This document shows, one piece after another, positions 14,072-52,636 of a DNA stretch of 64,000 nt. The notes below the pieces were generated by a model. The model was not told where the DNA came from. It ran no database searches and saw only the letters and a program-made list of their open reading frames with translations. The position numbers were made by a program, and so were the translations under genes. Source of the DNA: Linnemannia elongata (Eukaryota; Mortierellomycota; Mortierellomycetes; Mortierellales; Mortierellaceae); NCBI GenBank assembly GCA_036320915.1, contig JAXBDG010000007.1, forward strand, positions 124,001 through 188,000, given 5' to 3'. Positions within the stretch are counted from its first letter, which is position 1, and each line of letters opens with the position of its first letter.

Positions 14072-15251
14072 TATTATTATTGTGTTGATTAGGAAGGAGG
14101 AGTAGGTTGCCTGTTGATGCAAGAAGAAGACGAATGAAAAGGAATGAAAAGTTGTTGCTAGTGGGGATGAAGGAAGTGCTGAAGAGAGTGCGAGTGAATG
14201 AGGAAGGGAGTGATTGTGTTTGTGTGTTGTTGATGAGGAAAGAAAAGTGATGAAGTGCTCACCTTTTATTCTCTTTTATTTTTTTTTGCCACCACTTTCC
14301 CCTCTCCTAGGCTCTTGGTGGCAAATGCCCATCTGGGCTGAGGAGGTGGTCAAGATAGAGCGGGAATCGTTTGCCACCATTTCTGGTATGACGATTCAGG
14401 GCGGTGCTCCAAACTGGAATGGAATGTTGTTCGCTCGTACGAGCTGCACGCCTGCAGCCAATGTTCCATCCATCCATCACCCCCCGGCTCTCTTCCTCTA
14501 GCACAACACGCGTCGCGTGGTCCAATTGCTCCACAGCAACAGCAACACCGCAGTCTCCTTGTGATACTCGATATTCGATCGCGTTGTGTTGTGTGTGCAC
14601 CCGTCCTTGGCATTCAAGTCCGAGGGAATGAAGGAAACAGCGAACCCTGTTTTTTTCATTTGTTTTTCCTGTCCCTTTCCCCTAGTAGTGTCCTCGAAAA
14701 CCATGCTCTTTCCTCCAATTCGGCAAATTCGATTGCCGAGGCGAGGGAAGGGTCTCTGACACGTGATGGATCTTACACAAAGAAAAACCTTGACCTTGAA
14801 CACTTTCTGTTCACTTTGTCAAAGGGAGATGAAGAAAGGTCGATCTTGGTTGTCGATGTATCCATTGACAATCGACAACGAAGATGAGTGGAGCGTGTGA
14901 GAAAAAGAGTAGGAGATAGGTGTGGAGAGAAGTGAGAGAGTGAGCGTGGAAGCAGTTTTGCTGCTGACAGAGCACCAATTGAACTCGTACCTGTTCTTTC
15001 TCGAACCCCTTTTTCATCCTCCGTCCGGTTCCACCTTGTTTTTGTGTTCACTTTCAAAGTTCTCTCGGCTGCCACTCCCTCTTTTCTTTTCTTTCTTTTC
15101 TTCGCTTCTCCCATTCTTTCTGTTTTTTCTCTTTCTTTCTTCTTCTTCAATTCCATTAACCTCTCGGCGATCGATTCAAACTCCCTTCTTTCTCTCCCGT
15201 CCTCTCATTTGTGCATTCCTCCTCTTCCCTCTTCCCTCAACATCAAAACTC
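14072..15251. other. divergent intergenic region, DNA ligase / alpha-beta hydrolase
   Basis: 1.18 kb between two divergent starts. The ligase-proximal part holds three GGTGGCAAA-type sites. The hydrolase-proximal 250 bp is a pyrimidine-rich leader ending at the ATG at 15252. No gene was seen between. Confidence 0.7.
14285..14378. promoter_or_regulatory. three PACE-like GGTGGCAAA sites upstream of the PBZ ligase
   Basis: TTTGCCACC at 14285-14293, GGTGGCAAA at 14317-14325 and TTTGCCACC at 14370-14378, all exact 9-mers, 214-307 bp upstream of the ligase ATG. In budding yeast this sequence is the proteasome-associated control element bound by Rpn4, which also controls DNA-damage genes. Which factor binds it here is unknown. 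Confidence 0.6.
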
Positions 15252-16496
15252 ATGACGGCAGCCAAGCAACAAACCCCTGCTCAGAAAAAGGCCTCCAGCT
15301 CATACAAGCCCCAGCCGATCGTACTCACAGCTCTCGACGGATACCTGCTCAGCGGCTCCCTCTTCCTCCCTCCAGGACCCATCGTCACCTCTCGCGTTCC
15401 TACCTCTCATTCCTCCAACCATGACAACTCCAACCTCGCCGAGGGGGCAACCCACAAGCAGGACGTGGAGGCCCTGACAAAGGTCGTCATTATCAGTGCT
15501 GCCACAGCCACGATCCAGGATTTCTACTTCAAGTTTGCGATCTACCTCTCTCAGGAACTCGGCTTTATCGTTGTCTCCTACGACAACCGAGGCATCGGTC
15601 GCTCCCTCCCTGGATCTGAATCGCTCCAATTCCTCAAGGCTGCTGCCGACAATGGACCCCTCCCCACCACCAGTAGTGCCACATCGCCACCCTTGCCTCC
15701 CAAATCGACTTCAGCCAGCAATGGATCGGCAGCAGAGGAGTCGTCGATCGACAAGGACAAAAAGAAGAAGGACAACAAAAAGAAAAAGAATCCTTTGATC
15801 GGATTCGAGGCGACGATCGTCGATTGGTCGACCAAGGATCTCCCCGGCGTCTTCAACTATGTCCTCCAGCATTTCCCCGACAGCCCCCAACTCTATGTCG
15901 GACATTCGGTCGGAGGACACATCTTGCCAGCACTCGACTCTTACTATACCCGGAATCTGGAGCGTGTCCTCTTTGTCAGTGTCACGTCGGCCTACTGGCG
16001 CCACATGAACAGCCCGTTGTTCACCTACTGGTTCTTCCACATGGCGTCGCCGATCGTCAATAAGCACTATGGATACTACCCGGGCAAGACGTTCTGGGGC
16101 TCGATGGAAGATATGCCGACTGGATGTCTCGAGACCTGGGGATTCTGGAGCAAGCATAGGGATTATATGCTGGGCGGGAACCCCGAGTGGAAGCCCAACT
16201 TTGGACTATTCAAGGTGCCGATCTATTCGCTTTACTTTTCGGACGACGATTTCTCGTCGACGTCGGCGCCAATCATTATGGATTTGATCCCCAACACACA
16301 GAAACGGTGCGTTGGCGTGAAGCCGGTCGAAGACCTGAACATGAAAAAGGTTGGACATATGGGGTTCTTTTTTAATTCGTGCAAGCGAAAGCTGTGGGAC
16401 TCTGTTGTCCGATCGTGGTTCGTTGATGGTCGTGCGCTGGATATCGAGGCCATCCGGGAGCATGCCGCCTTGGAGAGCAGTTATGCTCGTTTGTAG
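15252..16496 (+). CDS. alpha/beta hydrolase of a bacterial-type family, intronless
   Basis: A single exon of 414 residues. It opens with LTALDGYLLSGSLFLP and continues FYFKFAIYLSQELGF, VVSYDNRGIGRSLP, YVGHSVGGHILP and YWRHMNSP, a pattern typical of a little-studied bacterial alpha/beta hydrolase group. The catalytic triad is visible as Ser219 in GHSVGG, an Asp of the DDD at 331-333, and His369 in VGHMGFFF. Between the GIGRS strand and VDWSTKDLPGVFNY lies a Ser/Lys-rich insert (about 135-180, with DKKKKDNKKKK), presumably a surface loop. No signal peptide. The ATG at 15252 is the first before the family start; frames further upstream use only non-ATG codons. AATAAA at 16524. The absence of introns among intron-rich neighbours is compatible with bacterial transfer. 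Confidence 0.88.
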   Translation: MTAAKQQTPAQKKASSSYKPQPIVLTALDGYLLSGSLFLPPGPIVTSRVPTSHSSNHDNSNLAEGATHKQDVEALTKVVIISAATATIQDFYFKFAIYLSQELGFIVVSYDNRGIGRSLPGSESLQFLKAAADNGPLPTTSSATSPPLPPKSTSASNGSAAEESSIDKDKKKKDNKKKKNPLIGFEATIVDWSTKDLPGVFNYVLQHFPDSPQLYVGHSVGGHILPALDSYYTRNLERVLFVSVTSAYWRHMNSPLFTYWFFHMASPIVNKHYGYYPGKTFWGSMEDMPTGCLETWGFWSKHRDYMLGGNPEWKPNFGLFKVPIYSLYFSDDDFSSTSAPIIMDLIPNTQKRCVGVKPVEDLNMKKVGHMGFFFNSCKRKLWDSVVRSWFVDGRALDIEAIREHAALESSYARL

Positions 16497-17011
16497 CATA
16501 CCTTTTTTTGTTTCTTTCTGTGAAATAAAAAATATCATGTGACTTGAGTATGGTCGTCGCCATTTTTTGTTTGCTTTTTTTAAGTCAACCTTACAGAACG
16601 TCCGTCGTCGCTCGCTTCTCTCCTTCAAACTCATTGTACCACTCAACCACCCTTGACTGAACACGCGACGACCAACACCAGGTTACAGCATACAAGGACC
16701 AGGAACACCTTTTCACTAAGACAAAAACCAGGAAGAATCACCATCGATCCCAGTAGCCATTCAACCCAAGATCACTACTTCAATTGTCCACCCAGAAAAA
16801 CAACACTCGGTTTATCACAAAAACCATCACTCCATCTCTCCTACAGGCTTTGCCCATCAACTTCTGTAAGACGCGCCACCAACCCGACACAACCCACCAG
16901 GAAGGCTCCTCCTCCTTCTCCTCCTCCTCCTCCTCCTTCTCCTCCTCCTCCTCCTTCTCTTCCTCCATCGCGCCACCCCCCTCCGGAAGGCCTTCAGCCC
17001 CCTGCTCTCCG
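16497..17011. other. intergenic, promoter of RAP1
   Basis: The first 40 bp holds the hydrolase poly(A) region. The rest is CA- and CT-rich leader, ending in a (TCC)n-like stretch at about 16905-16970 just before the RAP1 ATG. Confidence 0.65.
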
Positions 17012-20000
17012 ATGGCAAAGTTGTCATCCCATAACACCACTCGTCAGGGCTCAGAACCGCCTCACCAGGCACCAACAACATCAACTCCCAGAAATGGCTC
17101 GTCAGCAACAACAAAAACAAAGAAGCAGATCTTTGTGGACCCGAAAGGACAGCCATTACAAATCTGCGTATCTAAGACCGTACCTCACCGGGAGTCTGTA
17201 GAGTCGAGGATTAGGGTACGTGTTCAGTCCCTTCAGTGTTTTGTTCAAGGGAAATAGTATGAGCAGTACCTCCGCCTTTATGTATTAACACGAAACCCGG
17301 TTCTTTTTATTGCAATAGGAATATGGAGGTATTCCGACCTACGACGAGAGCAAGACTGCCATCAAGCTGGGAGCGCCAGGACGGACTACACAGGAGGTCA
17401 TGTTCTCAGTGGATTGGGTGGACGATTGTATAAAGGATCAAAAGCTTATTGAGCTCGACACATTCACCTACCGGTTGAAGATCGCTGTCAAGAATACCCG
17501 GAGGCCCTTCTCACGTGAGGATGATAAGCTACTTGAGGAATTTGTCAAGTCCAAGAGGGCAGTGAAAGCCCCTATCAACGGGAACAAGATCTATGAAGAT
17601 TTTGCGGCACAAGTAATGACCCTTTATCACGCATTTGATAATTACAGCATGTGTATATATCTCGCTCGCGGTGTTGACAGTATATTTCTATCATTCTAAT
17701 GATCCCTATCGATATAGTACCCCCATCACACGGCACAGTCTTGGAGAGAGCGTGCGGTCAATGTTTTGAACCTGACAGGAGAACTATCACCATACGAGGC
17801 GAGCAAGGCCAAGCGGGAGGAGGCTAGGAGGCAGATGCAGGAAAAGTTGGCGGCCGACAAGAAGATGCTGGAGACTGAACAGAAGAAACTTCTAGAGATC
17901 CAAGAGCTACAGCAACAACAACAGAAGGCAACGCAACCTACACTGACTGGAAATGCACACAGTACAGTTGAGGTCATCGAGAGTGATTCGGAAGAAGAGA
18001 ACGATGGGGCGATGCGGGAATCAGAACCGTCGACCCAGTTCTTTACACAGCAATTTCCATCTTCCCAGCGGTCAATACTGGATTTATCTGACATCGCTTC
18101 GACTGATTCTGAGGATAGAAGGCACAGGACCATGAGGGACGAGATTGTTCGTCGTCGCAACCATCCAGGCACCCAGACAAGCAAAGCGTTTCAGTTGCCC
18201 GAGTTTCCAGCTACAGAGACAGTGGACATGGAGATTACGTCACGTCAAAATATTCTACTCGACGCAGATTCGACTTCATCTTCGTCGTCAACCTCACCGC
18301 CAGCACGATCACCACCAACACGGACACCTGAGTCGAGAGACGCTACTCCACCTTCCGAAGCCCTCCAGCAGGATCAGGATAGCATCTGCGATGCTCCTTC
18401 CGGAAGTGACTACAGCAGCCCCGTCATACGTAATGGAAAAAACCCCAACAGCACAGAGATACTCAACATTACCGCCGACCAACACAACCATCCTAGTGAC
18501 GCGGACGAAAGCGACATTTCTGAGCCAAGGCACCCCCAGCCCTTACCTCAAGCAAGGAGATCGGTCAAAGCAGATAGGACCCGACCTGCGACGCTGTCTC
18601 CGGTTTCCAAGAGGATAGCATCGCCTGATTTACCTCATAACCCAGTTCTGAAGTGGAATTCAAGGAGGTCCTTGCCGAACAGGAGTTGGAGCCAGCCTGT
18701 CCATCCAGACGAACAGAAACAGGCAGGAACACCTACACAGGACGATCTGGTTGCTGCACGGGATTTACCCACCTCGCTTGCCTCGCCATCGCTACCAACC
18801 TGGAGAAACTCGCCCCAAGCACGCCTCTCGATACCCGATACTCTTTCAACCCTCAACCAAGATGTGCCTGCTTCAGCGAGTCAAAAGGATGCGCCTGACA
18901 CGGACACCTTGAACAGTGCAGCTGTTGTAGACGATACACCAGCCCCAGCGACGTTCAAAGACGCACACGTCGAACCTAACATCGAGGATCCGCAAAACAG
19001 TTCGGCTTTGGAAGGCATTCGGGACGAGGCTGTGTTGGACGATTGGCAGGGCGAGCTGGTATTGGATGATTTCCACGAGGACCCTACGGAACAGGTTCGA
19101 GGGGATGGACCACACATGGCAGGATCGCACGATGACGCAGATGTGCCTGAGCAAGACTACAACAGTGACTTGACGGACGAGGACGACAAGACTATTGAAC
19201 AGAGGATTATGAGGAAGAAGCAGCACCGGAAGTTGTCTCCACCTGAGCCACGAGGGCAAAAACCATCATCACCCACCCCAACCCCTACAGGTAGCTTTGC
19301 ATCCGAGGCACAGGAAGAGCAGGACTTGGAGGACGGCCAATCAACATATAAGCTTCCGGCCAAGCTACTCTCTAGTGCTGCCTCCCAACGACACCGGAAG
19401 CAGATGTCCCAGACTATATGGAGTGGAGGGATGTCGTTTCAATTCAAGAAGCGATCTGTTTTCAGTCCTGGTCTGGAGGGAGGCGTGAGTGCCGCCAGCT
19501 CGGTCCCAGTGTCGAGGGAGGGCTCGGTCTCAGCGACTGATGGCGAAGTGCCGCAGGATGACGTGGAGGCCGATAGGCTAGCGTTTACACGCATGGATCA
19601 GGAGGCTCATTCTAAGCACCCAAGAGTATCAGAGCCTCAGGAGGATGACTTTAGCGTCCAGGTCAAAGTCACAGAAACACTGACTGTTACCGGGTCGGTT
19701 GGGACGGGTAAGCTCCTGACGGTGAAGGGCGAGCCGGAGGACAACCTTGCTATCGGAGATCCAGAGGAGGTAGAGGAGCAGCAGGAGGAGCAATCAGGCG
19801 AGGCTGATCAGCGGGCGAGCGATACAACGCAAGAGATCCAGAAAGAAGCTCCTGTCTCAACCAAGACTGCAGCACCGTCTGATACTCCAAAATCATTGTT
19901 TGAGCAAGTGTCAATTGAGGCATCTGCACTCTCGTCGGGAACAGAGTACAAGGACGTGATGTTGGACTACTACTCGGGAGAAGGGGAGGATGAGCCACCG

Positions 20001-20594
20001 GAGAGGCGAAAGGAGCGGGAGCAGCTGTTGTTGTACCTGCGCGATCTGTACCGTAAAGAGATCCGGACATTGATGTTGCATGAGCTTGTGCCAGCGTTGA
20101 GGTCGATCGATGTTCTGGATGCCTGTAGTGGAGACCTTGAGCTGGCTCAGATTCTTATTAGCAAGGGCATGACCGGTAAGATAGTGTTGCATTTTTTTTG
20201 TATTCGTTGTCTGTTGACAAAAGTGTAAGGTTACTACGGCGTTAGGACTAGGTACTTGACTATGCTTATGTATGTATCTATGTATGTATGTACTCACCCC
20301 CTTACTGTCTGTTTTGCATTGTCACTAGAGGAGATCGAGGACCGGTTTTGGACGCGGGCAGACGATTACAAGTTGTACTCGCGCAAGAATGAGGATGTGG
20401 AAAGTCTGCTTGGTAGGCATTCTGCGACAGAGATGGTTCATAGGACAACGTACTTGACCAAGACTCGACAGGCAGCCAAGCAGTTTGAGGTGACCCATGA
20501 TGCGATGGAGAGGTCGGGGTTGTTGAAGCGCGCACGAGGGCGGTTTGGTGGACGAGAGTCCAAGAGACAACGGGTTGTTGGCGGAGACCAGTGA
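17012..20594 (+). CDS. RAP1: telomere protein RAP1 (BRCT-Myb-RCT)
   Basis: Four exons, 17012-17215, 17319-17612, 17718-20175 and 20329-20594, giving 1073 residues. The N-terminal BRCT domain (about 36-115) includes KQIFVDPKGQPL and FSVDWVDDCIKDQKLIEL. The Rap1-type Myb domain (about 129-183) has RRPFSREDDKLLEEFV, NGNKIYEDFA and PHHTAQSWRERAV, the tRP1 signature. A predicted coiled coil (about 185-230) and a very long acidic, Ser/Pro-rich linker follow. The C-terminus (about 955-1040) matches the RCT domain: ACSGDLELAQILI, FWTRADDYKLYS, LLGRHSATEMVHRTTYL. RAP1 sits on telomeres through a TRF-like partner or directly, and regulates length and silencing. The in-frame stretch upstream of the ATG is Ser-rich and begins only with a TTG. 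Confidence 0.93.
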
Positions 20595-21009
20595 GCTGAT
20601 GGCATGGGGGCTTTGTTCTGTCGTAAAAAGGATTTCCCGCCGTTGTAGCTTGTTGACGTACTACAATCATGTCAGCGATAATGATAGCAGCGATGATGGA
20701 AAATGCTTATTGTGATTTAACGTCGTCGTCCATTGGGTGTAAACCAACAACGATAACGTTCTTTTTTTTTGATCCCGACACCATGGGTATCGTCTGTGTG
20801 ATTTTTTTTATGATGAGAGCGGAGAAAAAGGAGTATGTACACTTGTTTTGGTGGCGATGGTTTGACTCTGGTGAACGAAGCGCTCCCAGTTTGGCACCGA
20901 GATTGGGCGTCACCATGTCTCACCTGCGGGCAAGACGAGAGAGAGCACAGTGAAAAAAAAGTCCGTTTCGTGCACAATTATACCATTGGACGTTGTGAAC
21001 GTGGGGCGG

Positions 21010-21040
<31 letters not shown>

Positions 21041-21413
21041 TCTTCACTTATCGTGTGCAATGTTGATATGCCAACAAGCATTGCCTGTTTGTGGGTAAAA
21101 GAAGTATCCGTTTACTTGGTAAGGTAAAACAAGCCACAGCGTCATTCTCTGTCATCATTTTGATCTGATCTGTGGTGTACTTTTACTACTTTATGCGGTA
21201 CTCTCTCACGCTTCTTTCTTTCTTTTTTCTCCTCTTTTCTTTTTATTCTTACCCTTCATCCTCTTTCTTTCACATCTTTCACTTTCATTCCCGGACGACT
21301 ATATAACACCTCATACCTTCCCACATTTTTATACCCTCAGATCACTCATCCTTCAAGGAAGACAACAAACAAACGAACAAACAACCAACCAAAACCAAGA
21401 CCAGATAAATAAC
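20595..21413. other. intergenic, RAP1 3' flank and GNAT promoter
   Basis: Holds a T run at about 21015-21040 and a CT-rich leader. GGTGGCGAT at about 20850 is a one-to-two-base variant of GGTGGCAAA. No gene was seen. Confidence 0.65.
21300..21307 (+). promoter_or_regulatory. TATA box of the GNAT gene
   Basis: TATATAAC, 107 bp upstream of the ATG at 21414 and preceded by a long pyrimidine tract. It predicts a start near 21330 and an A/C-rich 5' UTR of about 80 nt. Confidence 0.55.
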
Positions 21414-22133: not shown

Positions 22134-22931
22134 AGCATGTCTCTGCTAGACACAAGGATACAGGACACAGGACACTGGATAAGGACGGAGATGTCAGGAT
22201 GGTAGGAATGTACTAGGATCGAGGCGAAAGGAGGAAGGAGGATTGATCCGTAGGACAAACAGTCGGACAGCAGGAGAGATGCCTACGAACACGGCGATGA
22301 GAACGGCGACGAGACTTTCTGGAAAGTGCTGAGTTCGGTCGTGCGTTTGTTTACACACCACCCCCACTCCGTAGTCAGTGTTTATTTTTCTTTCTTCATC
22401 CACACATACACCACCCACACATACACACACAGATACAACATATAGTAGATCAAATAACGTATTTTTTTGTTTGGCATTTGATGGTGTTTGTTCGTATTTC
22501 TTGGCTACTCCGGATAAATTCTAAGCGATGCCGAAGGAAAGAGAACGAGGCGGAGCAGTGCGGTGGTAATGTTTGGATGGTCGCAGCACGAGAACATGAA
22601 TATATACATACAAACGGGAGTGGCTGGATTATGCTTTTGTGTCCTCTTTCGTCGTTGTTTTATTTGGGCTCGTGCAAAAGTGTTTTGATTGATCGATGTT
22701 GGTTGGATGCTTAATCATCCTCAGGTTCAGCCACGGCGTCTTTTTTTTTTTTTTTTTTTTGTTTTTTGTTTGATGATCACCGTCCAAAGAGCGCGGAGTA
22801 TATATATATGCAGTGTTTTCTTTCTCTCTTTCGTTCTTTCTTTCTTTATTAACAAAGAACAACCCAGCAAACCGTCTTTTGCGCCACCACCATCGCCACT
22901 CACTACTACAACCACCCACAACAACAAGAGG
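22134..22931. other. intergenic, GNAT 3' flank and peroxiredoxin promoter
   Basis: Includes a CA-rich microsatellite-like stretch near 22400, a T run at about 22740-22760 and a TATATATATG at about 22800, roughly 130 bp before the next ATG and a plausible TATA box. No gene was seen. Confidence 0.6.

Positions 22932-24298: not shown

Positions 24299-24329
<31 letters not shown>

Positions 24330-30959: not shown

Positions 30960-30960
<1 letters not shown>

Positions 30961-31029
<69 letters not shown>
30961..31029. repeat. 69-nt A homopolymer
   Basis: An uninterrupted run of 69 A, preceded by ACCATTCAGCC and followed by CCACCAATCC. It could be a poly(A) tail of an inserted retrocopy or a slippage product. 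The exact length in an assembly is unreliable. Confidence 0.9.
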
Positions 31030-32507: not shown

Positions 32508-33701
32508 TTAAAAGATGGGGAGCAAGGACGAGATGGGAGGCAAGGTCCTGTTGTTGTAATCCGATCCAAAGCCCTGTCCATGATTGCTGCTGCTGCTGTT
32601 GTTGTTGCTAGGGGTGGGCAGGGGGAGCGACAAATGTGTCGAGCCGTTCAAGATGTCGTTGATGCGGTGGCTGCTGCTGTTCTGCTGGCGACGGTGCTGG
32701 TGGAGGTGGTAATTGGCCTCCATCAGCGAGGGCAGCGTAGGCTGAGGCATCGACTGGTTCTTGAACTGGGGGTAAGGGGCGACCGAATAACGGGTCGAGC
32801 TGACACTGCCATAACGAGGCGAGGTAGGAGGAGAGTAAGGAGGAGTCTGAAGGTTTGGGAAGTTGTTGTTATGGTTGTTGAAAGAACCCTGGTTGTGGTG
32901 ATGCTGGGCAAAAGCGCGGTCCATGTTGGACTGGGCCATGTTGTTGGGAGGGTGGATGGGGGTCATTCTAGCCCAGGAAGGGAAATCAGACATCGACTCC
33001 TCAGACTCAGAGTGCGAGGGCGACATAGGGTAGGGCGACATTGAAGAGCGGGCGGTGCTGGCAGGCGAGTGCGAGGCCGACTTGGAGGACGCCGATCTGC
33101 TGCTATCCTTTGACTCATCCGACTTGCGGCTACGGGTGCGGTGCACGTGGGTACGGGCATGCTCGCGAAGGGCATCCGAGCGAGTGAAGCCCAGGCCACA
33201 GCTCTCGACGGGGCAGACAAACAACTTCTCAGAGGTGTGGGAGCGGATATGGCGAGCCAAATGGCCGGATCGGGTGAAGGACTTGTAGCAGTTGGGAACG
33301 GGGCAAATATGTTTCCGTGCCCACTCGGCCGACTCTTGGGCCTGGAGGTAATCCTGGTAGGTGGCGTAGTGGTGAGGCGAGGTCGAGAGGAGATCGGCAT
33401 TGCCGTTTTTGCAGGCTGAGGTGTGGGCCTTCATGTGGCGGGTGAGCTCATCGGATCGGGAGAAGCGCTTATCGCAGTTGGGGAAGTCGCAGGGGTGAGG
33501 CTTTTCGCCGGTGTGGGTCCGGATATGGCGGGTCTGGTGCTCGAGGCGCAAGAAGGATTTGTCGCAGAGATGGCACTCGTAGGGACGAGGAGCCTGCTCT
33601 GAAGATTCGTGGTCGGATTCACCGCTCGAAGAGTGTGCGCTCTGTGGGGCGGGATCGTTCATGATGGCAGCGAGTGAGAATGGTGAAGTTGTCGAAGACA
33701 T
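32508..33701 (-). CDS. four-finger C2H2 transcription factor, CreA/Mig1-like
   Basis: Intronless, 397 residues. Fingers 1 and 2 (about 39-95) read [20 protein letters not shown], then [18 protein letters not shown] and [13 protein letters not shown]. The RLEHQTRH helix and SRSDELTRH match the DNA-reading helices of the glucose repressors CreA/Mig1, which bind GC-rich SYGGRG boxes. After a spacer of about 35 residues there is a second pair: [19 protein letters not shown] and [19 protein letters not shown], with a [17 protein letters not shown] linker. The rest is Ser/Asn/Gln/His-rich with a Pro/Ser/Tyr block and ends [15 protein letters not shown]-like sequences lie at 33782-33789 and 34131-34140. 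A huge non-coding region lies upstream. Confidence 0.92.
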
Positions 33702-36700
33702 TTTTGTAGTATGTTTGATTTTTAGAGTTGGGGTTTGGAGGATTTGAGGATGAATTGAGGAAGAGGAGGAATCGTCTGTAGTTTTTATATGAACTTCGGA
33801 TGAGAGAGTATGTGTTGCAATTGAAGCGTAAGAATAAAGGAGACAACCGAGATAAGGAAAGGAAAGGAAAGCGTGAAAGAGAAGGGGGTTTGTGTGTTGG
33901 AGGGGTGTTTGCGTGCAAAAGAGGATCTTGTAAGAGGGAAAAGGGGTTGAAGCTGGAAGGTTGTGTTGGGGTGTTCAAGTCAATGAAGGGAGAGGAAGTG
34001 AAGGTTTCAATGCGTGAAGGAGATGAAAGGAAGGAGTGGGAGAAAGTGCTGGGTGATAACGACAGAGTGAAGAAAAGTGAGAAGAAAGTAAAAAGGGAAA
34101 ACGAGGATCCAAAGGGGGGGGATCAGGGTTCCTTTTTATACCAGTTCAGCACAACGGGCTTATTATCGACTGGATCTTAAAACAATAGAATACCCCATGG
34201 GACAATTGAACTTCAAAAGCCAAGGCGGGTTGCTTGAAATTGTGTTGTTGACAAACAAACAAACAAAGAAAGAACGCTCTGCCGGTTGACTTTATTTTCC
34301 CTGCAAAGAAACAAACATTATAGTCTTTCTCTGTACAAACTGAGCGATCATTTATTTATTATCCACACCCGTGTTATTGACACCCCCAAGAGAAGGATAA
34401 GAGCTGTGAACTCTGCACAACAAAGGACAAGAGGTTAATTCAATTGCTTTTGGATTATTGAATCTGGATAGACAAACAGTTACCCTCCTTTAAACGAAAA
34501 CAAACTGAACAGGACAGACAAACATATGTTCTGTGCCTTATCATAGCATATTCCCTCGCTCTGCAACAAATCACAGAAGCGTCCGTCCCTTTTTTTTTTT
34601 TTTTTTTTTTTTATTTCTCTCCGCAAAGAAAAGAAACACCCATATCATACACGATTGTAGTACCACATCTTCATATACAGGTGCCTGTCCTTTGGAACCA
34701 CCTCACCTTCTAATCAGCAAGACTCATAACAACCTTCCACTCACTCAATCACTCGGATTGCCCCTTCTCGGTTCCTACCTTCTCCCACCTCCTTCTTTCA
34801 TCCCATCCCATCATGCCTCCCGTCTATCTCAACCCACACACTTTCTTTCGTTTGTTTTGCACACACCCATCTCCTTTTTTTCTTTCCTGCATTTTGTCTC
34901 TTGGTAAACAGGATACTTTGTTGTTCATGACCGAAAAGAGAAAAAAAAATGGATCAGTTATGAAGGCACAAGAGGGTTGTTGTTATCAGTAACAGGGGGT
35001 GAGGGAACTGGGATCGATCACTTTTTTTTTTTTTTTTTTTTTTTTTTTGTTTGAAATAACAATAAAGTAAAGTAAATAAATAAGAAAGCACACCATTCTT
35101 GAGTGCTCTTGTGCACGTTGTCGCTTACACTATTTTTCCAATATGGTCATTCCTTTCCTCCACGTCCTACTCCTTATAAAGTGGATAAGACATATGCCAG
35201 ACCCAAAGACCAGGGCTAATCTGAAGAAGAGGACTTAAACGATCCAATTGAGTCGAGTCCGATGTTTATTTCTTACTCGTATATGCATTTCTAAAGGGAA
35301 GAAAAAAAAGAGGGGAAGGGGAGCAAGGGGCCGTACGACCACATTGCACTTGGTCCGTCCTCGAGTGTTGTATTGAATGATGTTGTTGAAGGGGGTTCTT
35401 TCGTCTTGCTTGATTGTTCTGTTTGTGGGTTGTGTTTTTTGGTGTATCTCTAAACTCCAATTGGCATGTGAAAGCCCCAACGAAGACCATTATTATTAGC
35501 CCAGAGCAAGACAAGGGAGGGAAAAAAAGGGACAACAAAAGTGTGGAGGAGTGCTGGGAAACAATTCTTGATGTTATTTCTCAGCATGAACAAGAAAAAA
35601 CCTTCTTTTCAATACATAAAGCGATCGATTCAATGGTTATCGACAGATAGATAAGTGTATTGTGTCCTGGAGCCTTAATAGCCGTCTGACTATGAACATA
35701 ACGGGGCCACCATGGGCAGAGACCGATCTCCTCATGTACCTCCTGGTCAATATTTTTTATTTCTCCACTCTCTTGTTCGTTATTTCACTCACCGGCTGGC
35801 TGCCTAACTGGCTGCTCGACCCTTTTCTTCGCTCGCCTGTCCGTCCGTAACACTTCATCGTCGGCCCTGATCACTGGCTACTTACTCTGCTGGGCTTGGA
35901 CTTTCTTTTTCTTTCTTATGTGTGTGGCTGCTCACACACATACTCGATAAACACACCGCCTGCCTGGTCACGACATTTCGCCCATTGACCAAAAGAAACA
36001 CCCGTTATCCGAAGTGAAAGTGAAGAGAGAGCGAGAGACACAGTTCTGCTCCGCTACACATTCTTACTAAGAAAGTAAGTAAGCATTTGCCATCACCATC
36101 ATCATCATATTCCTCTTGTCCAGTTTCAAGACTGGTCCGGACACCTCAATGCCAGGGTGAGGAAGATGCGATAGCGAGCCCATCCATATCACCAGTCCGG
36201 AGGTCACCTTCTCTCTTTTACTCTCATTCTTTCGATCCATTTCCCACATGCCGATCTCCCCCTTCTTCACTAGAATGCCCATCTGGTCTCGCCTATCCTT
36301 TTCGAGCGTTTCTTTTCACCTTTTCCCACTCATATCCCATCGAAATACCCTTGTCATATTCGGCGATCAAAGCTAACAAAGACACAACAGGCCAAAAAAA
36401 ATCAATTTGCCATCTGGAATCCCTGTCTATATCTCTCTTCCTCCCTCTACACTCTCTTCCTTGGTTGGCTGTAACCAAAGTTCATCTTCTGCGGTCGGAC
36501 TTATTACCACTTCCTTCTGCAACACAACAAACAATACAGCAAAAGATATCCCTCCTCCACCTGGCAGATTTTCTTGCCTTTGCCATGACCACAAAACACA
36601 AAATGTAGACTTCATCATGCCAAATGGAACAAAAGAGGACCGAGTTCCCTTTCCCTTAGTCTTTCCTTTTGCCTTCCACACTCCCCTTGTCTTGTATGCT

Positions 36701-42700: not shown

Positions 42701-45647
42701 AAATCCAAATTCGGAAGTATCCTAACCATGTGTTCACTTTTTACCCTCTGTCTTGTCCCACAACCGAAAACTCCGTGTGTTCGCATCCGTTCAATTGCCA
42801 CGAGGCAATAGACATCTCAAAAAAAAAAAAAAACCAGAGAGAGGAAGGTGCATTTTGTCAATCAAGTGAGTGAGAAGAAACATGTTGAAAGGCACTATGA
42901 CGACTCTGTTCTAAAAGGGCAGAGTGAGGGCAAAGAAGGGTGTGCCACTAATTTTTTTCTCAGATCTAAACTTGGGTTTCCTTCGACCTCATTTTCTGTC
43001 TCTGTCTCTGGATCACAGAGTCTGCCTCTGTGTGTGTGTCTATTATTCCACACACAAACACTTCAAGCTGTGCGTGCGCATGTTCACGATCCAGACAGGA
43101 CGATTCTCGTGTGTTTTGTGCTAAATGTGGGTTTCCAGCCCATATTATGCACCTATTCCTACTCCCCCTCCTCACCCGTCTACCCACAAAGTTGTGTTTG
43201 TTGCATATTGTTGTGTCATCGCACACATAAACAAACGCCTTACTCCTCAAACATCTAAAAGAAATTCAAACATATGTTCTTACTGCACACTCGAGTCGGG
43301 TCACCTCTGTTGTTTTTAGCAATCTGTTTTGACTTAATTCTGTGCGACAAAAACACTCGCGCCGAGTGACAGAGGAGAAGAAGAAGCGCTAATCGTCATT
43401 TACGCCTGCACACTTGAATCAGATCAGGGGACATGTCATTGACAGGACTGGACTGGGAGAGATAGGCAGATCCGTCACTTGAAGGTGCTCATTCTCGCAC
43501 CTTTGAGGTAGGAGACTGTGTACAAACTAGCGTCTACTCTTCTCGTTGCCACGCGTTTATTTTGAAACCCCTTCCCCAAGATGCGTCAATGGCTACGTGC
43601 GATCCATCGTTGGGGTTGGCAGATCCCATCTCTTCTATCCCCATGAAGGAGATGTTCACTTTATCCCACGCATATTTTCCTTTACCCAACCCATCGCTTT
43701 CTCAGCTCAATATAATGTTTAGCCCAGCCCAGCGATAATCTTGTTAACATGCGAGAATGAGAAATTCGAGAGAACATTTCGAAAACGGAACGTGGTCTGA
43801 GCCATACGTTTGCATCAACACCAACACCGAGGACAGAGGGGTCAAAGAGTGGAGCTTGAAAATTGAAGTATGCAAATAATTGAAAGCTGAATTATCCAGG
43901 TTATCCTTACCTCTCCAGCGCAGCTCCAAAGAAGACAAACACCTCCGTCCAAACACCTGTTTGTTTTGTAGACCACCAAGGGAATAGAAGCAGTGATGAG
44001 GTAGAGAGACAGCCAGAATGAAAAATGTGAGCAAGCCCTTCTGCCCTTTTTTTCTCAATAGTGAAAGGGTGGGGAGGACTAAATGTGTTGTGAGGGATGT
44101 GAGTACGAGGGAGCGGAGTTGCATCATTTTCTGAGGTTGCGCGAATTAAGAGTGTTCTCTATTTTTTTTTTTTTTTTTTGTTCTGAGCTCGTCCTTGTCT
44201 GCGAAGTGGTGAAGACACTGATCCCTAAAAAGTTGCGGCACGGCTCACTCACTCAAAAACGTCCACTCCGGTTCATTGCCAAAAAAAAAAAAGAAAAAAA
44301 AAAGAAAGAAGGGCGAGATGGCTGGAGGAGCGAGCTGGTAAGGTAGGCCGCAAAAGGCGAGGCGAGGAGATGCGATGCGAAACGATGCAAGTGAGCATTT
44401 TTTTCTCGCCAAGTTTTGCATGGATACGTTTGTTTACTACTCAGGCAGACAGGTAGTAGATGAGAGACATTTTTCATTGGTGATGCGAAACACGATCTCC
44501 TTTCTCTTGGAATGCACCAGATATTTTTTTCTCTTTGGCAAGCAACGGTATTCATGTTACCACTTGGTAAAACAGACATGGATCTCTCTTGGAGGACCTA
44601 CATCTGTATAACTCGATGCTTTTCAGTGGTGCGTGCGTGCGTGAGGAAAACATTGATCTGGGTCCATGGGTGCGAGAGAACAGATTAAAAATGTGATGAG
44701 ACAGGAATATCCACTGGGACAAAAACAAGAGAAAAAAAAGACGGGCAAGGATGGATCACATTTTTGTATGTGTGCGCCTTTCCAATGCATGTCTCCCATG
44801 CCCCAGATCATTATTTTTATTCCTCGGATATATTAGAGGTTTGTTACCACACCCACCAAACACGAGTCGCGTTTTTTCTTGCTTTCGACTTTACTCACCA
44901 CACAGTATTCCTGACTTTTTAGTGGTTCTGTCCCAGTTCAGACAGTCTTCAACGAAACAGGTGCTTACGATAATAATAACCACAAACCATTACCACAACG
45001 GGCACAACCACAATGCCAGCGGAGGGTGGCGGTGAAAGAAAAAATATCCAAGGGGAGGGGAGGGAACACCAATGGGCGCGCATAGCTAATCAGCTTCTCA
45101 TTTTTTTTGAGTTATCGTGTCCATGGCCCAGTGGCTCCTTTTTTCGTGGGCGCTTTTCCTCGCAGATGATTGGCCCACTTCTCTGGGGAAGCTATTTGGC
45201 TCCTGGAAACACGCGCGTCCGATAAGGAGCGATGTACATGGACATGGACATGTACCTCCTGGGCATAAGCTTCTTATTTCTCTGCCCATCTGACAAGAGG
45301 TGCATGCTGAAGAAAAAGAAGAGAGTGTAATATAAATGCCAATGGCGCACACCCACGAGTGGTTGGCGGAGGTTGCATGAGCATCTATAGGGCACCAACC
45401 CACCATAAATCCTTATCGCAGATCAAGAGAATGAAGAAAGGAGGAGCGAGGCTTACGCCGAGCATCATTCAAATGCAGACAACAGCCACCCCACCTTGAA
45501 CGGATGGCTTTGGTGCTCGGCTGGGGCATAAATCTCCCCGACCCCATACTCTCCACATCTATTCTGACCACATACACAAACGCACGCGCTTACACATATC
45601 TATATTTTACATACGGCCATTTATCTACCATTCCTCTACTTCACCCT
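33702..45647. other. 11.9-kb gene desert upstream of the zinc-finger gene
   Basis: No gene, tRNA or transposon I can support in nearly 12 kb, in a window where the right third has a gene every 2-3 kb. The sequence is mixed: pyrimidine tracts, A/T homopolymers (about 34590, 35025, 36760, 44165), short CA/GT stretches and many small frames under 160 codons without domain likeness, mostly starting at non-ATG codons. The first kilobase is the leader/promoter of the zinc-finger gene. The rest may be long-range regulatory DNA, non-coding RNA or repeat relics too decayed to read. Confidence 0.6.
33782..33789 (-). promoter_or_regulatory. TATA-like box of the zinc-finger gene
   Basis: Reads TATAAAAA on the minus strand, about 81 bp upstream of the ATG at 33701. 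A second candidate, TATAAAAAGG at 34131-34140, would give a 5' UTR of about 400 nt. Confidence 0.45.
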
Positions 45648-46529
45648 CTAAGAGCGAGAAGAACGAGACCGATGGGCAGCCTGCAGGTCCGGACACCATT
45701 CAACAACCCTCCAATTCGCAGTCTCTAAATGCTCCAACTGCCGATGCCGATCCCCACTCCATCCCCTCATCGCCGTCTGCAAGATCTGTAGCGAGTCCCC
45801 ATGACTCACCAACACCACCCATACCTCCTCCCCTTCCTGTTCCTCCTGGCGCTCCTCCTGGCTCCGAATCACATCCGTAACACGTCTTGTCACATCCACA
45901 ACACTCTCGACTCCAAATAGCTCATGAAACGGGTTCTGAGCATCCGCAACCCAAACCTGATTATATAAATCATCAGAGGGTGTACGCATCTCGAACTCAC
46001 CAAAGAAGCGTTCTCGCAGGTCCTGGGTAATGGTCAGTCCGAGCTCCAAGGTAATGGTGTCTTGGAAAGGGGAGAAGAAGGTACGGAATTGAGATTTGAT
46101 GATGGAGGCGGTGTTGAGGGTTCGTTGGAATGGGGATGTCAGGATCCGGACCCTTGCGCGGTTTTGGGTTTGGGTTGAGGTTGTGATGATATGATCAGCT
46201 AACGTCTTCGCCGTCTATTCAGATATCAAATGAAAAAAGCGTAACGTAACGTGTCTTTCATTTAGCAATCCATGAAACCCTTTCCCTTTCAACTGAACGC
46301 CCATAGCAGCTGTCTCTCTTCCATGCTGTGCCCGTTACCCAGCCCTCGCGTTTGCAGAAAAAAGAAAAAAAAAAGTTACCTCGACGACTTCAAGACGTCC
46401 TTTGGAAGAGAGTCCAAACCCTGTCCCCTCGGGCCCTCCATCGGCGCGAGTTCCGTTTTCGAGCGACGAGACGATCCGCGATTCCTGGTTGGCAAGCGAA
46501 TGCCCATGTCGAAACAGAACAAACTTCAT
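45648..46529 (-). CDS. histidine phosphatase (phosphoglycerate mutase-like)
   Basis: Two exons on the minus strand, 46380-46529 and 45648-46214, giving 238 residues. It opens MKFVLFRHGHSLAN, with the catalytic RHG motif at residues 7-9. LTSPFQRTLNTA supplies the second arginine region, LRERFFGEFE the Glu proton-donor region, and VLVSHGDSLQ the second catalytic His. The length suits the small cofactor-dependent-mutase-like phosphatases. The substrate (sugar phosphate, nucleotide or other) cannot be told. It is divergent from CHFR with 336 bp between starts, and two GGTGGCAAA sites lie between them, so the two may share control. Confidence 0.9.
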
Positions 46530-46643
46530 TCTTTTCCTGATGCCCGAGTCGATGAGGGTTGAAAAATCTAAAGTTGTAAGTTTTGTTTGTATCAGAGGGA
46601 AATGCTTCTACAAAATAATTGATGGGCATCACGTGCAGGAAAT

Positions 46644-46670
46644 GGTGGCAAAAACCGAAGTGGTGGCAAA
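46644..46670 (+). promoter_or_regulatory. two PACE-like GGTGGCAAA sites between the phosphatase and CHFR
   Basis: Exact 9-mers at 46644-46652 and 46662-46670, both on the plus strand, 18 bp apart start to start. They lie about 196-222 bp upstream of the CHFR ATG and 115-141 bp upstream of the divergent phosphatase ATG. A CACGTG E-box lies at about 46630. Confidence 0.6.
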
Positions 46671-46865
46671 ACGAGAGAGGAGTCAGATGCCGCCCTTTGT
46701 CCATTATTTTTGACTTTTTTCATTTTCCTGACCCATCAACTCCTCACTCTTCCCTTCTCTTCATCAACTCTGCCATCTCGCCTTTGCCGAACCCGAGCGA
46801 CTTCTCTTCCAAAACTCGCGCTTCTTTTCTACCAGCAACGACAAACAGACACCACGACATTCACA

Positions 46866-49163
46866 ATGAGCGACGATGCCATGCAAGGAACTTTGACCTA
46901 CGACCAGGACATTCAAGACTTGCCCGAGGACGACAATGATACCGGCAACAACAGCAATGACCAACCAGCACCAGCAGGACCGCTCGTCACCTTGCTCTCG
47001 CTCAACACCCACGCCGCAAGTATCCCACTTACCAGAAACAAGACCATTCTCGGTCGTGTTGCAGGTAACTCCCACTTCCTCCTATTTCTTTTTAACTTGT
47101 CTATACAGATACTTCACATACAACAAACGTTTCTCTCACCACCAATGACTTACCTTCTCTTTTATTGGAAAAAATAGCAAAATGCACAGAGGGCGCGGTA
47201 TTAGATAACCCTAGGATCTCAGGAACTCACTGCGAGGTCTCATCTCGGTCGATGACGGACGCAGACGCTGCTATCTGGATCAAGGACACTTCGAGTAACG
47301 GTGTCTGGGTGAACGAAAAGAAGATCTCCAAGAACGAGACTGTCAAGATCTTTGATAGGGATATTGTCAGCTTTGCCGCTGGACCCGTCGATGCCAAATG
47401 TAAGATAGTATTGAAGAAAGAAAGCTGTCCTTCGTTTCTCTCCCTCTCTCGCTCATTCTCTCTCTGGGAACAACTCACTAACGCAAGGCTGTTTCGCGCT
47501 TGTGTATAATATAGCTGATGCCCCGGCGTTCATGCTGATGGACAAGCGGGTAAAATCAGCATCACACAAGGGCACACAACAACAACAACTGCAGCAAACA
47601 CTCCCGAAGCGCGCCAACGACGACCTTGAGGATGAATCGACAGCTGCAGACACAGAGCCGGAGCAAAAGAAACAAAAGACGGATGATACTGTATCGGCAA
47701 AAGACAAGGAGCAGGAGGACAATGCGTTTGAACAAGAGTTCGAATGTGGCGTCTGCCACGAGATTATGCACAAGCCAATGATCTTACAGCCTTGTCTTCA
47801 TTCCTTCTGCAGAGGCTGCTGCAAATCCTGGCTGAAACAGTACGTTTGGCTACGTTTTGTGTGACTGATTTACACATTGTATTGAGTTAATCTTGATGGT
47901 CCGATCCTGACCGCTCACTTTATTTTCTGGATCATTGTATTATAGGTCTAAGGTGTGTCCGTCGTGTCGTCAGGAGGTGACCAGGACGAAGCGGGACTTC
48001 AAACTCAACAACCTGATTGCACTCTTCCTCAAGACCCGGCCGCACATGGCGCGCGATGATTTGGATGAGGAGGAAGGCGGCAACGACAGCGACAAGTCAG
48101 ACTTGATTGGCGGTGAGAGACCAAGACGGCGTAATCGACACTATGATTACGATGACGAAGATGACGAGGACGAGTACGATGAGGATGAAGCCGATGATGA
48201 GGACGCTGTAGACCACAACTTGCAACCGCTCCCAGTCGGCTTTCAGGGTCTACCAGTTTCTTGCCCTTGCTGCCTTCCCAATAACAACATTGGATTTACT
48301 TGCCCAGACGGCGTTCGGTTGGAGCCTCTCCCTGCGAATGCCACTTTTGGAGATTATTACGCTCGTCTTCAACCTCAACCTGGTCACTTACAATGCCCGA
48401 ACTGCCGAAAGCACCTTCCTGTGATCCCTGAAGCACAAATCGATATAGCCGATCGGTTTAGATGTAGGTTTAAGGCTGAGAGCGTTTCTCTGTCCCCCTG
48501 GTCGAATGGGTGGTGGCATTATTGTGCTAATTATTTTGCAACTTTTTTTCTTACTCGTGGTATTGTTCTTTAGGCAAGATGTGTCATGTGGCAAGTTGTG
48601 GATGCACGGCGCCGAGCGTTGACGAACGAGCTGCTCGGGTGGGATTTTACGAGAGCTTTTTGAATCCGTTCGAGATGCAGGTAGTACACGAGTACATGAC
48701 GACAAACAATGTTACCGTACAGGCATTGTGGCAGGAGATAAAAGCTGGAATGGATAACGGGACCTTTTACTACCTTGGAACCGACGACGTCCCCAACCCA
48801 CCCCCGGCTGCTGTCGCTGCCGCAGCGCCTGCACCAGCAGCAGCTAATGATGCCGCTGATGCAACCGATGACAATGCAGCAGATCCAGCAGCACTTGCCC
48901 CGGCACCTGCACAAGATACACCAGCAATGCGAGCACAAGGCGTCAAGACCTCCGACAGGCTGTGCTACACATGCGCTCGAGACTTTTTCGGCAACGGGCC
49001 CATCTACCAGTGGCGCAAGGCCCTGAACGACGCAGTACTACCTGCTCGTGCTGTTGGTCGGAGCGACTGCTGGTATGGCCGTCATTGCCGCACACAGCAT
49101 AACCTTCGTAATCAGGGACATGCTGCTCGGTTGAACCACATCTGTGAGAAGACGCATCGTTGA
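46866..49163 (+). CDS. CHFR: CHFR-type FHA-RING ubiquitin ligase with a PBZ finger
   Basis: Five exons, 46866-47064, 47178-47399, 47515-47839, 47946-48463 and 48574-49163, giving 617 residues. The FHA domain (about 55-140) has ILGRV, NPRISGTHCEV and DTSSNGVWVN, the phospho-Thr pocket pattern. The RING (C218-GV-C221 to about 262) reads CHEIMHKP, CLHSFCRGCC and VCPSCRQEV. An acidic Asp/Glu tract follows, then a Cys-rich region (SCPCCLPNN, QCPNCRKH, CGCTAPSVDERAAR, LCYTCARDFFG) found only in CHFR. The C-terminus DCWYGRHCRTQ...GHAARLNHICEKT is the CHFR PBZ finger (C587, C593, H604, H610), with three extra residues in its middle compared with the human form. Animal CHFR is a mitotic-stress checkpoint E3 recruited by poly(ADP-ribose). 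AATAAA at 49200. Confidence 0.95.
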
Positions 49164-49376
49164 TCGGTATTTCTGGAGAGAGGGAGGTGGATAACGAATA
49201 ATAAAATACAGAGTGATTCGCATTTTGAATTGAGCATCTCTTATGGATGCCAGGACTGTGTGAATAAGAAAATCTCGATTGGGCGAAGCACGATATGTCA
49301 GGAAAACGAAAAAAATCCTTGTTACAAGACATAGATTATGCAAAAATTTTGGGTTTATTTTATTTCCTCAAGCCTA

Positions 49377-52300
49377 TCATGACTTTTTGGCACGCCACGA
49401 GTCCCATGCCTGATCCAGTTCCCGAATCTCGTCTGGACAAGGGGACCCATACAAGAGATCGACATCAGCCTTGCCCATCAGACTGCACGAGATGCAATTG
49501 AGGACCCATGTCAGCGAGACAGCCTGGAAGTCACGGAGCCAGCCATGTTTCTTCAGATCTGCCGGAGATAGTGCTGTTGTCGGTGATGCCGCAGGACCTT
49601 CATTGGAGATGGAAGAGGGAGAGGTGGTAGCAGGGTTGGTGAAGTGTCCGGAAGGTATCTTGTTCGGGTCACAAACGATAATCGGGACGGACTTATCGAT
49701 AGGCACCTGCCACGGTTTGGTATCCTCAGTTAGGTACAAGAACGACCGATTCGGCGAGAAAAAGATATCCTCTTCCACACCTGAACTGCTGGTACTAGTG
49801 CTGTTAGGTCCAGATGTTTCGCCAGCAGGAGTTCTAGACCTGGCGCGAGTGGAAGAAGAGGACGAAGACGATTTGGGAGGTCGTTTCATCAAGACGCTCG
49901 CGCCTCCGCATTGGACCAGTCGAAGTAGTTCCTGTTTCTTGATGGACTTTTGGGCGGCTGCTCCGAATTCGCCGTAGAAGAACATTCGACAGGAGTCAAA
50001 AAGTTTCAATGACTACCAACAGAGTACCAAGGCAAGATTTAGATGACGTTAGGCTTGATAATTCTTTTTACCCATGCATGTCAATAAAGCGCAAAGCTTA
50101 AGGACACAGTGAAAAGGGTTGACTTACATGCTGTTGCCGAAGTTCACGACGGCGTTGTGTTCCAGGCGCCGGACCAAACTGGGCATCTCCTTGAATCAAA
50201 TACCGCTCATCCGGCAGGGGCAACCATGCCCTTGCCTTGATACTGTCCAGAAACCACTCATGCCGAACAACCCACCCATTGGAAAGCATTCCAACTAGAT
50301 ACTTGAGCACTCTCGGACAAAGAGCTACACCGAGCCGCTTCCAGACCAAGGGGTCGACACTGGTAATAATATGAGTCGCGGATTCGTTGAAAACCTGATC
50401 CGGCATATGTTCCAGGAAGAGACCTGCTTCAATCACACGGGTGATATTGTCATCAAAGTTGTCCTTTTGCTCCTTGTTCAGTCCAGTAAAGACACACGAT
50501 ATGGCGGTAGTTGGTTCTGAGTTGATGCTGCTGGGCAATCCTGGTGAGGACGTTGATATTTCAGAAGCCGAGGGGCCAGAGGCGGTTGAGTGAGGTGACT
50601 GTGACAGTGGTGGTTTTCGTCGACTGGGTGCTCGATTTGCCGAGAGGAATGGCAGATCCCGCCGGGGCAACGTAAACATCTCAGAGTCTAATGTTGGTTG
50701 TGAGGAAGCGATGACTTGTCCATACTCATAATTGTCACCGCCAAGATCCTCAGCTTCATCCGCGGTTGCCGTTGCCGATTCTCCGCTGCCTACGGAATCG
50801 GACTGATTTTGTCCGCACGCAGGGCATTCATAAATCCGAACATTCTTTCCAATAGACATCACTTTCGGGCAAGAGGTGCAGGCCCAGAGTCTCTTGCCAT
50901 CAATTCCTGACGTCGCATTTCCCAGCTCGACACTCTCCTTCCGCCGCCTACTCGTCGGCGGATTCCTAATATCCTGCTGAGTCTCGCGCATAACGGTAAT
51001 ATCGTCTGAAGAATAGAGTCCGCGTTTTAGGTCTGGTCGGGAAGGCTTCTTGTTCCTGCTTGTTGCGCCGTTGGAAGGTGTCCCTGACCGTCCAATGTAC
51101 TCATTCGCCTGCATCCGCCGCTTCCTAGAGGTTCCATGGGTTATCTGTTGATCCTGTACTTGATCAGTGTCGGTGACGGACTCCGATTCAAGATCCAACT
51201 GCAATTTCCGGAACGATGGTGTAGGCATCCGAGGAGTGTGGAAATTGCTCGTCTAAATAAGCATAAGACCGATCAAGCGCGCAACGATGTCAATTTTGAG
51301 GTCAGATACACTGAATCCGATACAAAATCGCAAGCTTGATAGCCAGCTGGTTACTTACAACTCCATTGGACGACTCTTGGTAATCACCGTAAGAAGGAGT
51401 ACTATCTCGCGGCGTCTCGGACTCTTGGTGCAGGAGCGGCGTTGGGGTGTTTGCTTTCCGAATACTGAGTAACCGCTGGAGCTGAGAAAAAGTAGGTGGT
51501 TGCTGTGGTTGTTGTGCTAGATGGTGGTTGTCGCCACCCAGAATCTCGGTTTGCTGAGATGTCAACACCTCAGTGACAACATCCTCTGAGGAGACCTCTT
51601 GACCTTGTCCGTTCACGTCTGAGGGTGGTACTGTCTGTTCATTTTCCTGTTCCTGTTTTAACTCAACCATCTCTTGGATCTCTCTCTCCCTCCTGTGCAT
51701 AGTCATTGCTGCATCGACGGATGGGAAGGTTTGTGCCTCGACATTTGATAAGCTGCTGAAGTGGTCTGAGATTGGAAGAGTAGGACCACAATCGTAAGAC
51801 CAGATAGGTGATCCAATGAACGTTCCCTGCTCTAGATCTCGCCTTCTATCCTGTGATGACCTCTCCTGAGTACCTTGTATCTCGTTGGAGTCTAAAAGGC
51901 GCGTAAAGTAAAGGTAAGTTTAGGGACATGCTTGAACTTTCGAGCACGAAGGAAAACCCGGATGAAATAGTATGCATTAGGGTAATACTTTGAGCCAGAC
52001 GGATATTACGCAGTTTGGTGACACACGCCACCAATATGTCATAGGACGGGTTCTTGACCAGATTGCCAACCCTTGCTGGTATGTTGCAGGTGGGGCAGAC
52101 ACAGTCTGTTCCTAAAACTGGGTAAATGCACTTTCTGATCAGAAGAGACAAAAGAAATGTAAAAGTTATTAGGACCGACTGTTACAAATGGTGGCAAAGA
52201 GGGGGAAGTGAAATTGGGTGGCAAGATCTGTCCGCTGGGTGGCAAACGAGAAAGAAAGACGTACTGGCAAAAGTGGTGTCCACATTCCTTGACAGTGTAG

Positions 52301-52528
52301 GTTGAATGCAGTTCGTCAGAGCTATGTACGTCGAATAGGAGAAGGGTGAATGTTTTCGTGTAAGCTAATGGAATCGTTGTGGTTGTAGTTCGGAATGTGG
52401 TAGGTGCGAATTTGTTGTTGTTGGATGTCAATAAGGAACGTAAGAGAGTGAAAGTGTATTGAATGGTACCAGAGAGGGCAGCGAAGTAGCCTTTCCATGC
52501 GCTCGAGCGCATCGTCAAAAGGTGCCAT
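49377..52528 (-). CDS. BARD1: BARD1/BRCA1-like RING, zinc ribbon and tandem BRCT protein
   Basis: Six exons on the minus strand, 52470-52528, 52265-52321, 51989-52134, 51359-51891, 50128-51252 and 49377-50012, giving 851 residues. The RING starts at C17-PL-C20, continues ECGHHFCQKC and CVCPTC, and runs into NIPARVGNLVKNPSYDILVA and KLRNI, closely matching the BARD1 post-RING helix pattern (C-x-TPAW...KLRNL). A zinc ribbon C390-x2-C393...C408-x2-C411 replaces the ankyrin repeats of animal BARD1. BRCT1 (about 516-620) includes LKYLVGMLSNGWVVRHEWF. BRCT2 begins KLFDSCRMFFYGEF and QLVQ-like RLVQCGGASVL; a Ser-rich loop splits it. In animals the BRCA1-BARD1 pair ubiquitinates H2A and drives homologous recombination. 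It ends 213 bp from convergent CHFR. Confidence 0.87.
52190..52246. promoter_or_regulatory. PACE-like sites in intron 2 of the BARD1-like gene
   Basis: GGTGGCAAA at 52190-52198 and 52238-52246 (exact), with an 8-of-9 match GGTGGCAAG at 52217-52225 between them. All lie in the 130-bp intron at 52135-52264. Confidence 0.45.
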
Positions 52529-52627
52529 GGATTGTGGTAAAGGGAATGAATGAGACTGAAAGAGAGGAGGGGCGAAAGAGAATAAGGGTGTGAACAGAGG
52601 TGAGAAGAGAAGGAACGATATTTTTTT

Positions 52628-52636
52628 TTTGCCACC
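52628..52636. promoter_or_regulatory. PACE-like site in the BARD1-like promoter
   Basis: Reads GGTGGCAAA on the minus (coding) strand, about 100 bp upstream of the ATG at 52528. It lies in the 132-bp gap behind the PIG-U stop. Confidence 0.55.

Follow-up and report, generated by a model that had tools for sequence, protein, structure and literature searches.

The nine-letter word and its genes in the window

The element described here is the 9-mer GGTGGCAAA, a word identical to the yeast proteasome-associated control element (PACE), as it occurs at DNA-repair genes of the soil fungus Linnemannia elongata. The stretch analysed, called the window below, is 64 kb of contig C30 (C30:124001-188000) in a genome of 51.14 Mb and 32 contigs. 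Exact copies of the word lie upstream of three of its genes, which encode an ATP-dependent DNA ligase with a C-terminal PBZ zinc finger, a CHFR-like E3, and a RING and BRCT protein of BRCA1/BARD1 type (Table 1). Start codons and introns were placed by reading frame and not by transcript evidence. Two of the three promoters are bidirectional, the ligase facing an alpha/beta hydrolase frame and the CHFR-like gene a histidine phosphatase. At the ligase, the sites at 14285 and 14317 form a convergent pair (TTTGCCACC, 23 bp, GGTGGCAAA), and a one-mismatch copy at 52217 stands between the two exact copies in the inferred intron of the BARD1-like gene.

Table 1. Sites of the word and genes of the window (window coordinates)
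Feature	Position	Strand	Remarks
GGTGGCAAA	14285..14293	-	222 bp upstream of PBZ-ligase ATG
GGTGGCAAA	14317..14325	+	-254 from PBZ-ligase ATG
GGTGGCAAA	14370..14378	-	-307 from PBZ-ligase ATG
ATP-dependent DNA ligase, C-terminal PBZ zinc finger	12575..14071	-	ATG 14071 by reading frame
Alpha/beta hydrolase open frame, divergent partner at ligase promoter	14916..16493	+	Pfam Abhydrolase_1 6.7e-6; extent is that of the open frame
GGTGGCAAA	46644..46652	+	-222 from CHFR ATG, -123 from phosphatase ATG
GGTGGCAAA	46662..46670	+	-204 from CHFR ATG, -141 from phosphatase ATG
CHFR-like E3 (FHA by eye, RING, cysteine-rich and PBZ-type tail)	46866..49163	+	ATG 46866, reading frames
Histidine phosphatase, promoter in common with CHFR	45651..46529	-	His_Phos_1 7.4e-17; ATG 46529 by reading frame
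GGTGGCAAA	52628..52636	-	-108 from BARD1-like ATG
GGTGGCAAA	52190..52198	+	Inferred intron of BARD1-like gene
GGTGGCAAA	52238..52246	+	Same inferred BARD1-like intron as 52190
RING and BRCT gene, BRCA1/BARD1-like, second BRCT weak	49380..52528	-	ATG 52528
GGTGGCAAA inside HMGCL coding sequence	1906		Exact match
tRNA-Gly (tcc) gene	8063-8133	-	
tRNA-Tyr (gta) gene	11867-11949	-	

The identities of the three genes are of graded firmness. The ligase matches the Pfam models DNA_ligase_OB_2 (8.6e-24) and zf-CCHH (1.3e-12), is the single match of the Pfam PBZ model in the whole genome, shares 99% identity with a Linnemannia elongata ligase, and has homologues across many Mortierella-group genera. 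The CHFR-like gene has a RING match (7.8e-7) and a cysteine-rich zf-CRD match that falls under the curated cut-off (6.9e-5); its tail was identified through a match to the solved CHFR structure (9.9e-9). In the BARD1-like gene the matches to zf-C3HC4_2 (0.0029) and BRCT (5.6e-4) are both under their curated cut-offs, while its first BRCT domain matches the solved BRCA1 BRCT at 4.9e-7 and its second matches BARD1 weakly (0.095). A search for literature that treats BARD1 and BRCA1 jointly in early-diverging fungi found none.

All ten exact copies listed for the window, both strands included, in the initial annotation were found again at the same coordinates, together with its gene calls for the PBZ ligase, the divergent phosphatase/CHFR-like pair, the RING and BRCT gene and the HMGCL coding sequence at 1906. 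The ten sites group as three promoters, one intron pair and two singletons. The clustering at repair genes that had been described was also recovered: sites occur at three of the four genome-maintenance genes of the window (RAP1 is without) and are lacking at PIG-U, EDC4, carboxypeptidase and amidase. About 0.5 copies had been expected per window. The excess is real, since dinucleotide-preserving shuffles of the window (n = 100) hold a mean of 0.78 copies and reached ten or more in 0 of 100 cases, but a fairer expectation is about 2 per 64 kb because the genome holds 1584 copies, coding and non-coding taken together. That total stands at about 2.5 times what the window shuffles extrapolate to (623 copies) and at 4.7 times the 340 copies of the reversed-word control. 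Set against the genome rate (about 1.98 per 64 kb), the window is some five-fold richer, and the Poisson probability of ten or more (about 4e-5) is too optimistic because copies of the word cluster inside promoters.

A C2H2 gene (32511-33974, minus strand) sits between the ligase and CHFR genes. It was considered as a possible Rpn4 and rejected; by eye it has four fingers, in two pairs, and looks Mig1/CreA-like, with no sign of Rpn4.

Repair and proteasome genes across the genome

Three repair genes, RAD51, PARP1 and DMC1, were chosen by Pfam family with their upstream DNA unseen; two weaker PARP-family matches, a third RAD51-family gene, MSH6, MSH2 and other BRCT genes fell outside this prospective sample. 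RAD51 (C5:669559-670710, minus strand) has one exact copy at -155 from its ATG. PARP1, which was taken as one gene from a BRCT match at C12:453342 and a PARP match on the same strand at C12:454821-455567, and whose ATG lies 45 bases, in frame, ahead of the BRCT match, has two exact copies among the 320 bases searched, at -276 and -235. These form a convergent pair with a gap of 32 bp, resembling the ligase pair. Success at two of three genes has a probability of about 0.010 if 6% of promoters are assumed to carry the word by chance, and of 0.028 if 10% do. RAD51 and DMC1 were assigned by eye, through N-terminal motifs that we take to tell the two apart.

Work in the opposite direction, from the word to the gene, added two more. 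A copy at C1:111162 lies at -168 from the start of MSH3 (MutS_I 8.9e-9; solved Msh3 3.5e-13), and an XLF-like gene has a direct pair at -67 and -51. The 12 sites at these seven repair-type genes span -51 to -307; a T precedes the word in 10 of the 12 and an A follows it in seven, and among the first 30 sites of contig C1 the T is present in 21.

The genes of the core proteasome provided a contrasting set. A PF00227 profile search of the genome gave 30 exon matches at 14 gene places, which is the number expected of 20S subunits. None of the 14 has an exact copy of the word, in 13 merged blocks that amount to 50.4 kb and extend at least 1.5 kb past the 5'-most matched exon, where 1.56 copies were expected at the plain genome rate; the count covers the 20S genes, with the 19S (Rpt/Rpn) genes outside it. 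The difference between the prospective repair genes (2/3) and the 20S places (0/14) has a Fisher P of 0.022.

The site positions, the graded gene identities, the over-use of the word across the genome and its absence at the 14 20S-type places are the observations from which an interpretation has to start. Exact sites upstream of each mean that PARP1, the PBZ ligase, CHFR, the BRCA1/BARD1-like gene and RAD51 have one proximal element in common. We consider it probable that GGTGGCAAA, in extended form TGGTGGCAAAA, is the site to which a single sequence-specific activator binds in L. elongata, with a DNA-damage and poly(ADP-ribose) (PAR) signalling set among its targets. Damage or proteotoxic stress would stabilise or activate this putative factor, which would often act through two or three copies of its site, at a distance of some 50 to 310 bp ahead of the start codon. 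The proposed targets include PARP1, the PBZ ligase, CHFR, the BRCA1/BARD1-like E3, RAD51, MSH3 and the XLF-like gene, among which the PBZ ligase and CHFR are likely readers of PAR; once active, the factor may raise the expression of these genes jointly.

Other carriers of the word and rival readings

The element is not exclusive to repair genes, for paired copies also occur at Crinkler genes and the word is met at assorted others. Direct pairs with a gap of at most 30 bp are found at 28 places genome-wide (control: 0 forward, 1 reverse), and convergent pairs within the same gap at three, the ligase promoter being one of them. One sequence cluster, largely of Crinkler genes, takes in 22 of the 28 direct-pair loci; the six places outside it are at the XLF-like gene, a NADAR gene, an F-box/LRR-like gene (two overlapping places), CHFR and one Crinkler-adjacent locus.

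Several loci with multiple copies deserve mention in their own right. The paired-site Crinkler loci include L064, L065 and L073, and L065 has five copies of the word in 3 kb. Five similar paired-site loci (C6:4086, C9:1449674, C12:4272635, C31:2726663 and C32:3907) lie within about 13 kb of contig ends; no Crinkler match was found near them, and the one frame scanned there (L067) was without a Pfam hit. The NADAR gene (L066:1501-1520, C5:1304567) has two upstream copies 11 bp apart; it was tried as a DNA-ADP-ribose repair gene and left out of the repair set because TIGR02464, the riboflavin-intermediate N-glycosidase, is the NCBIfam model that fits it best (5.4e-29). Three copies in direct orientation, all of them with TTTTGT before the word, lie at L084:1501-1567 (C27:40171-40237) upstream of the gene that is F-box/LRR-like by eye and had no Pfam hit.

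Several findings weigh against a regulon confined to DNA damage. At 16 of the 28 direct-pair places a Crinkler N-domain exon follows the pair at a distance of 163-332 bp; the domain has 93 matches genome-wide. Only one recognised repair gene, MSH3, was met at the first 30 sites of C1, where the scan took in 40 open frames drawn from 24 of these 30 loci and 13 of the 24 yielded a Pfam name (E <=0.01); the other named neighbours are WD40, TM198-like, F-box/LRR, LRR, C2H2, C2, LYR and ML genes, ribosomal L23 and L24e, a fungal regulator domain, a reverse transcriptase and a weak DUF4259. The XLF-like gene is weakly identified, with a Pfam XLF_CC match under the cut-off (7e-4) and no match among solved structures. 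DMC1 (C3:1667563-1668420, minus strand) has neither an exact nor a one-mismatch copy in 1201 bases, about half of them upstream of its first recognisable exon, and the prospective sample was small, at three repair genes in all. One more neighbour of the word (L008) is presumably cullin-like, judging by eye. The DNA-damage regulon proposed in the initial annotation is partly supported by RAD51 and PARP1, which were found prospectively, by MSH3 and, weakly, by the XLF-like gene, but it does not stand as a set of repair genes alone, given the Crinkler and many other genes with the word and DMC1 without it.

These same data give some weight to the strongest alternative, that the word is a general proximal promoter element of many unrelated genes and that the repair genes are a coincidence of sampling. 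With 1584 copies in the genome, and a single recognised repair gene standing beside F-box/LRR, ribosomal and other genes in the C1 sample, this is possible, although we consider it unlikely: the matches at PARP1 (two sites) and RAD51, the site-free 20S-type places and the uneven distribution among the genes of the window speak against it.

A second alternative accepts the regulon as real and disputes the nature of the factor, which would be not Rpn4-like but a damage repressor of the RFX/Crt1 type that recognises an X-box half-site in the TTGCCA core. The core TGGCAA is common to the word and the X-box half-site, and Crt1 has a role in damage control in yeast. Variants of the word speak to the tolerance of the factor: up to 250 bp from an exact site, one-mismatch copies reach a density (20 in 24.6 kb) about 2.5 times that found further away (48 in 144.7 kb), a ratio inflated by overlapping loci counted more than once. 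Such crowding would be expected of a factor with some tolerance for variation. The variant GGTGGCAAC, which is closer to the RFX half-site, shows no build-up next to exact sites, occurring once in the near and once in the far DNA, but these counts are too small to decide the matter. We regard a repressor of this type as improbable.

That the word marks a canonical PACE/Rpn4 proteasome regulon, embracing some repair genes as in Saccharomyces, is very unlikely. The initial annotation was right to equate the 9-mer in sequence with PACE of yeast, where PACE-like sites are reported to work at RAD52, RAD23 and MAG1 (PMC7672625). The proteasome role that goes with the name did not survive for the 20S genes: GGTGGCAAAW is present on nearly 75% of yeast proteasome genes, according to PMC526180, but on none of the 14 places in L. 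elongata. The set cannot be filed as a PACE proteasome regulon because the defining proteasome feature, tested for 20S, is absent. The presence of GGTGGCAAA at repair genes but not at the core proteasome genes examined suggests that the switch can serve DNA damage alone.

Spread of the word by a mobile or multicopy family, which the single cluster of 22 direct-pair loci might bring to mind, is the least probable reading and is disfavoured for the window sites, since the ligase promoter searched genome-wide matches itself alone, the ligase and CHFR promoters are self-matching only among the compared site loci, the 52 kb region has no counterpart among them, and the clustering leaves the ligase, CHFR, XLF-like and NADAR loci each on its own.

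Comparison with known systems

For the proposed activator with DNA-damage/PAR targets, the best analogy is with the repair branch of yeast Rpn4, which the L. elongata element would resemble in its working. S. cerevisiae has the same nine letters, likewise placed in the proximal promoter, and Rpn4 also works at yeast repair genes through PACE-like sites (PMC7672625). The two differ in that RAD52, RAD23 and MAG1 of yeast have the variants RACE/MACE, whereas the repair genes of L. elongata have the exact word; yeast MSH3 is listed among the genes with PACE-like sites, yet it proved independent of Rpn4 in that study. The site-free 20S-type places are the other difference from yeast.

Outside the hemiascomycetes, proteasome genes without the site are familiar. 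PMC526180 reports PACE as enriched at proteasome genes in hemiascomycetes and not outside them, and describes a preference of the Neurospora crassa Rpn4 for GGTGGCAAAA while leaving its targets open; N. crassa resembles L. elongata as a non-hemiascomycete in which most proteasome genes are without the site, and differs in that a candidate target set can be proposed for L. elongata. In Nosema ceranae, proteasome genes are without a canonical PACE and there is no obvious Rpn4, and Rpn4/PACE is inoperative in S. pombe (PMC8615682). Site-free proteasome genes are therefore not new in themselves; the difference is that the passage on Nosema (PMC8615682) mentions no further role for the site, whereas in L. 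elongata the word is over-used and stands at repair genes.

The role of Rpn4 in fungi without the site on their proteasome genes was an open matter in 2004 (PMC526180), and no later answer is among the literature matches listed, none of which ties Rpn4, PACE or DNA damage to basal fungi. Searches for Rpn4 or damage-response promoter motifs in Mortierella, for DNA-repair promoters of Linnemannia elongata and for an Rpn4 orthologue in Aspergillus as a proteasome transcription factor found no literature, and the sole match for GGTGGCAAA with RAD51 was work on bladder cancer. A yeast study (PMC2848573) reportedly deals with Rpn4 degradation and end joining. If the proposed target set is real, an early-diverging fungus would offer a concrete and testable answer on the role of Rpn4, and PAR signalling, with its writer, ligase and E3, would have a cis-code in a fungal lineage that keeps an animal-like toolkit.

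A bolder reading, which we advance tentatively and regard as doubtful, is that the PACE site was originally a DNA-damage/PAR element, that the proteasome took it over in the yeast line alone, and that an SOS-like regulon persists in Mortierella-group fungi, joining PARP, PAR readers, RAD51, MSH3 and end-joining genes with the large Crinkler family. The likeness to the bacterial SOS system is that one cis-element serves unlinked repair genes, a similarity of working rather than of membership; the difference is that the L. elongata element is a eukaryotic promoter element and that its regulator is putative. The SOS system also drives colicin genes, to which the Crinkler genes of L. elongata are a loose parallel.

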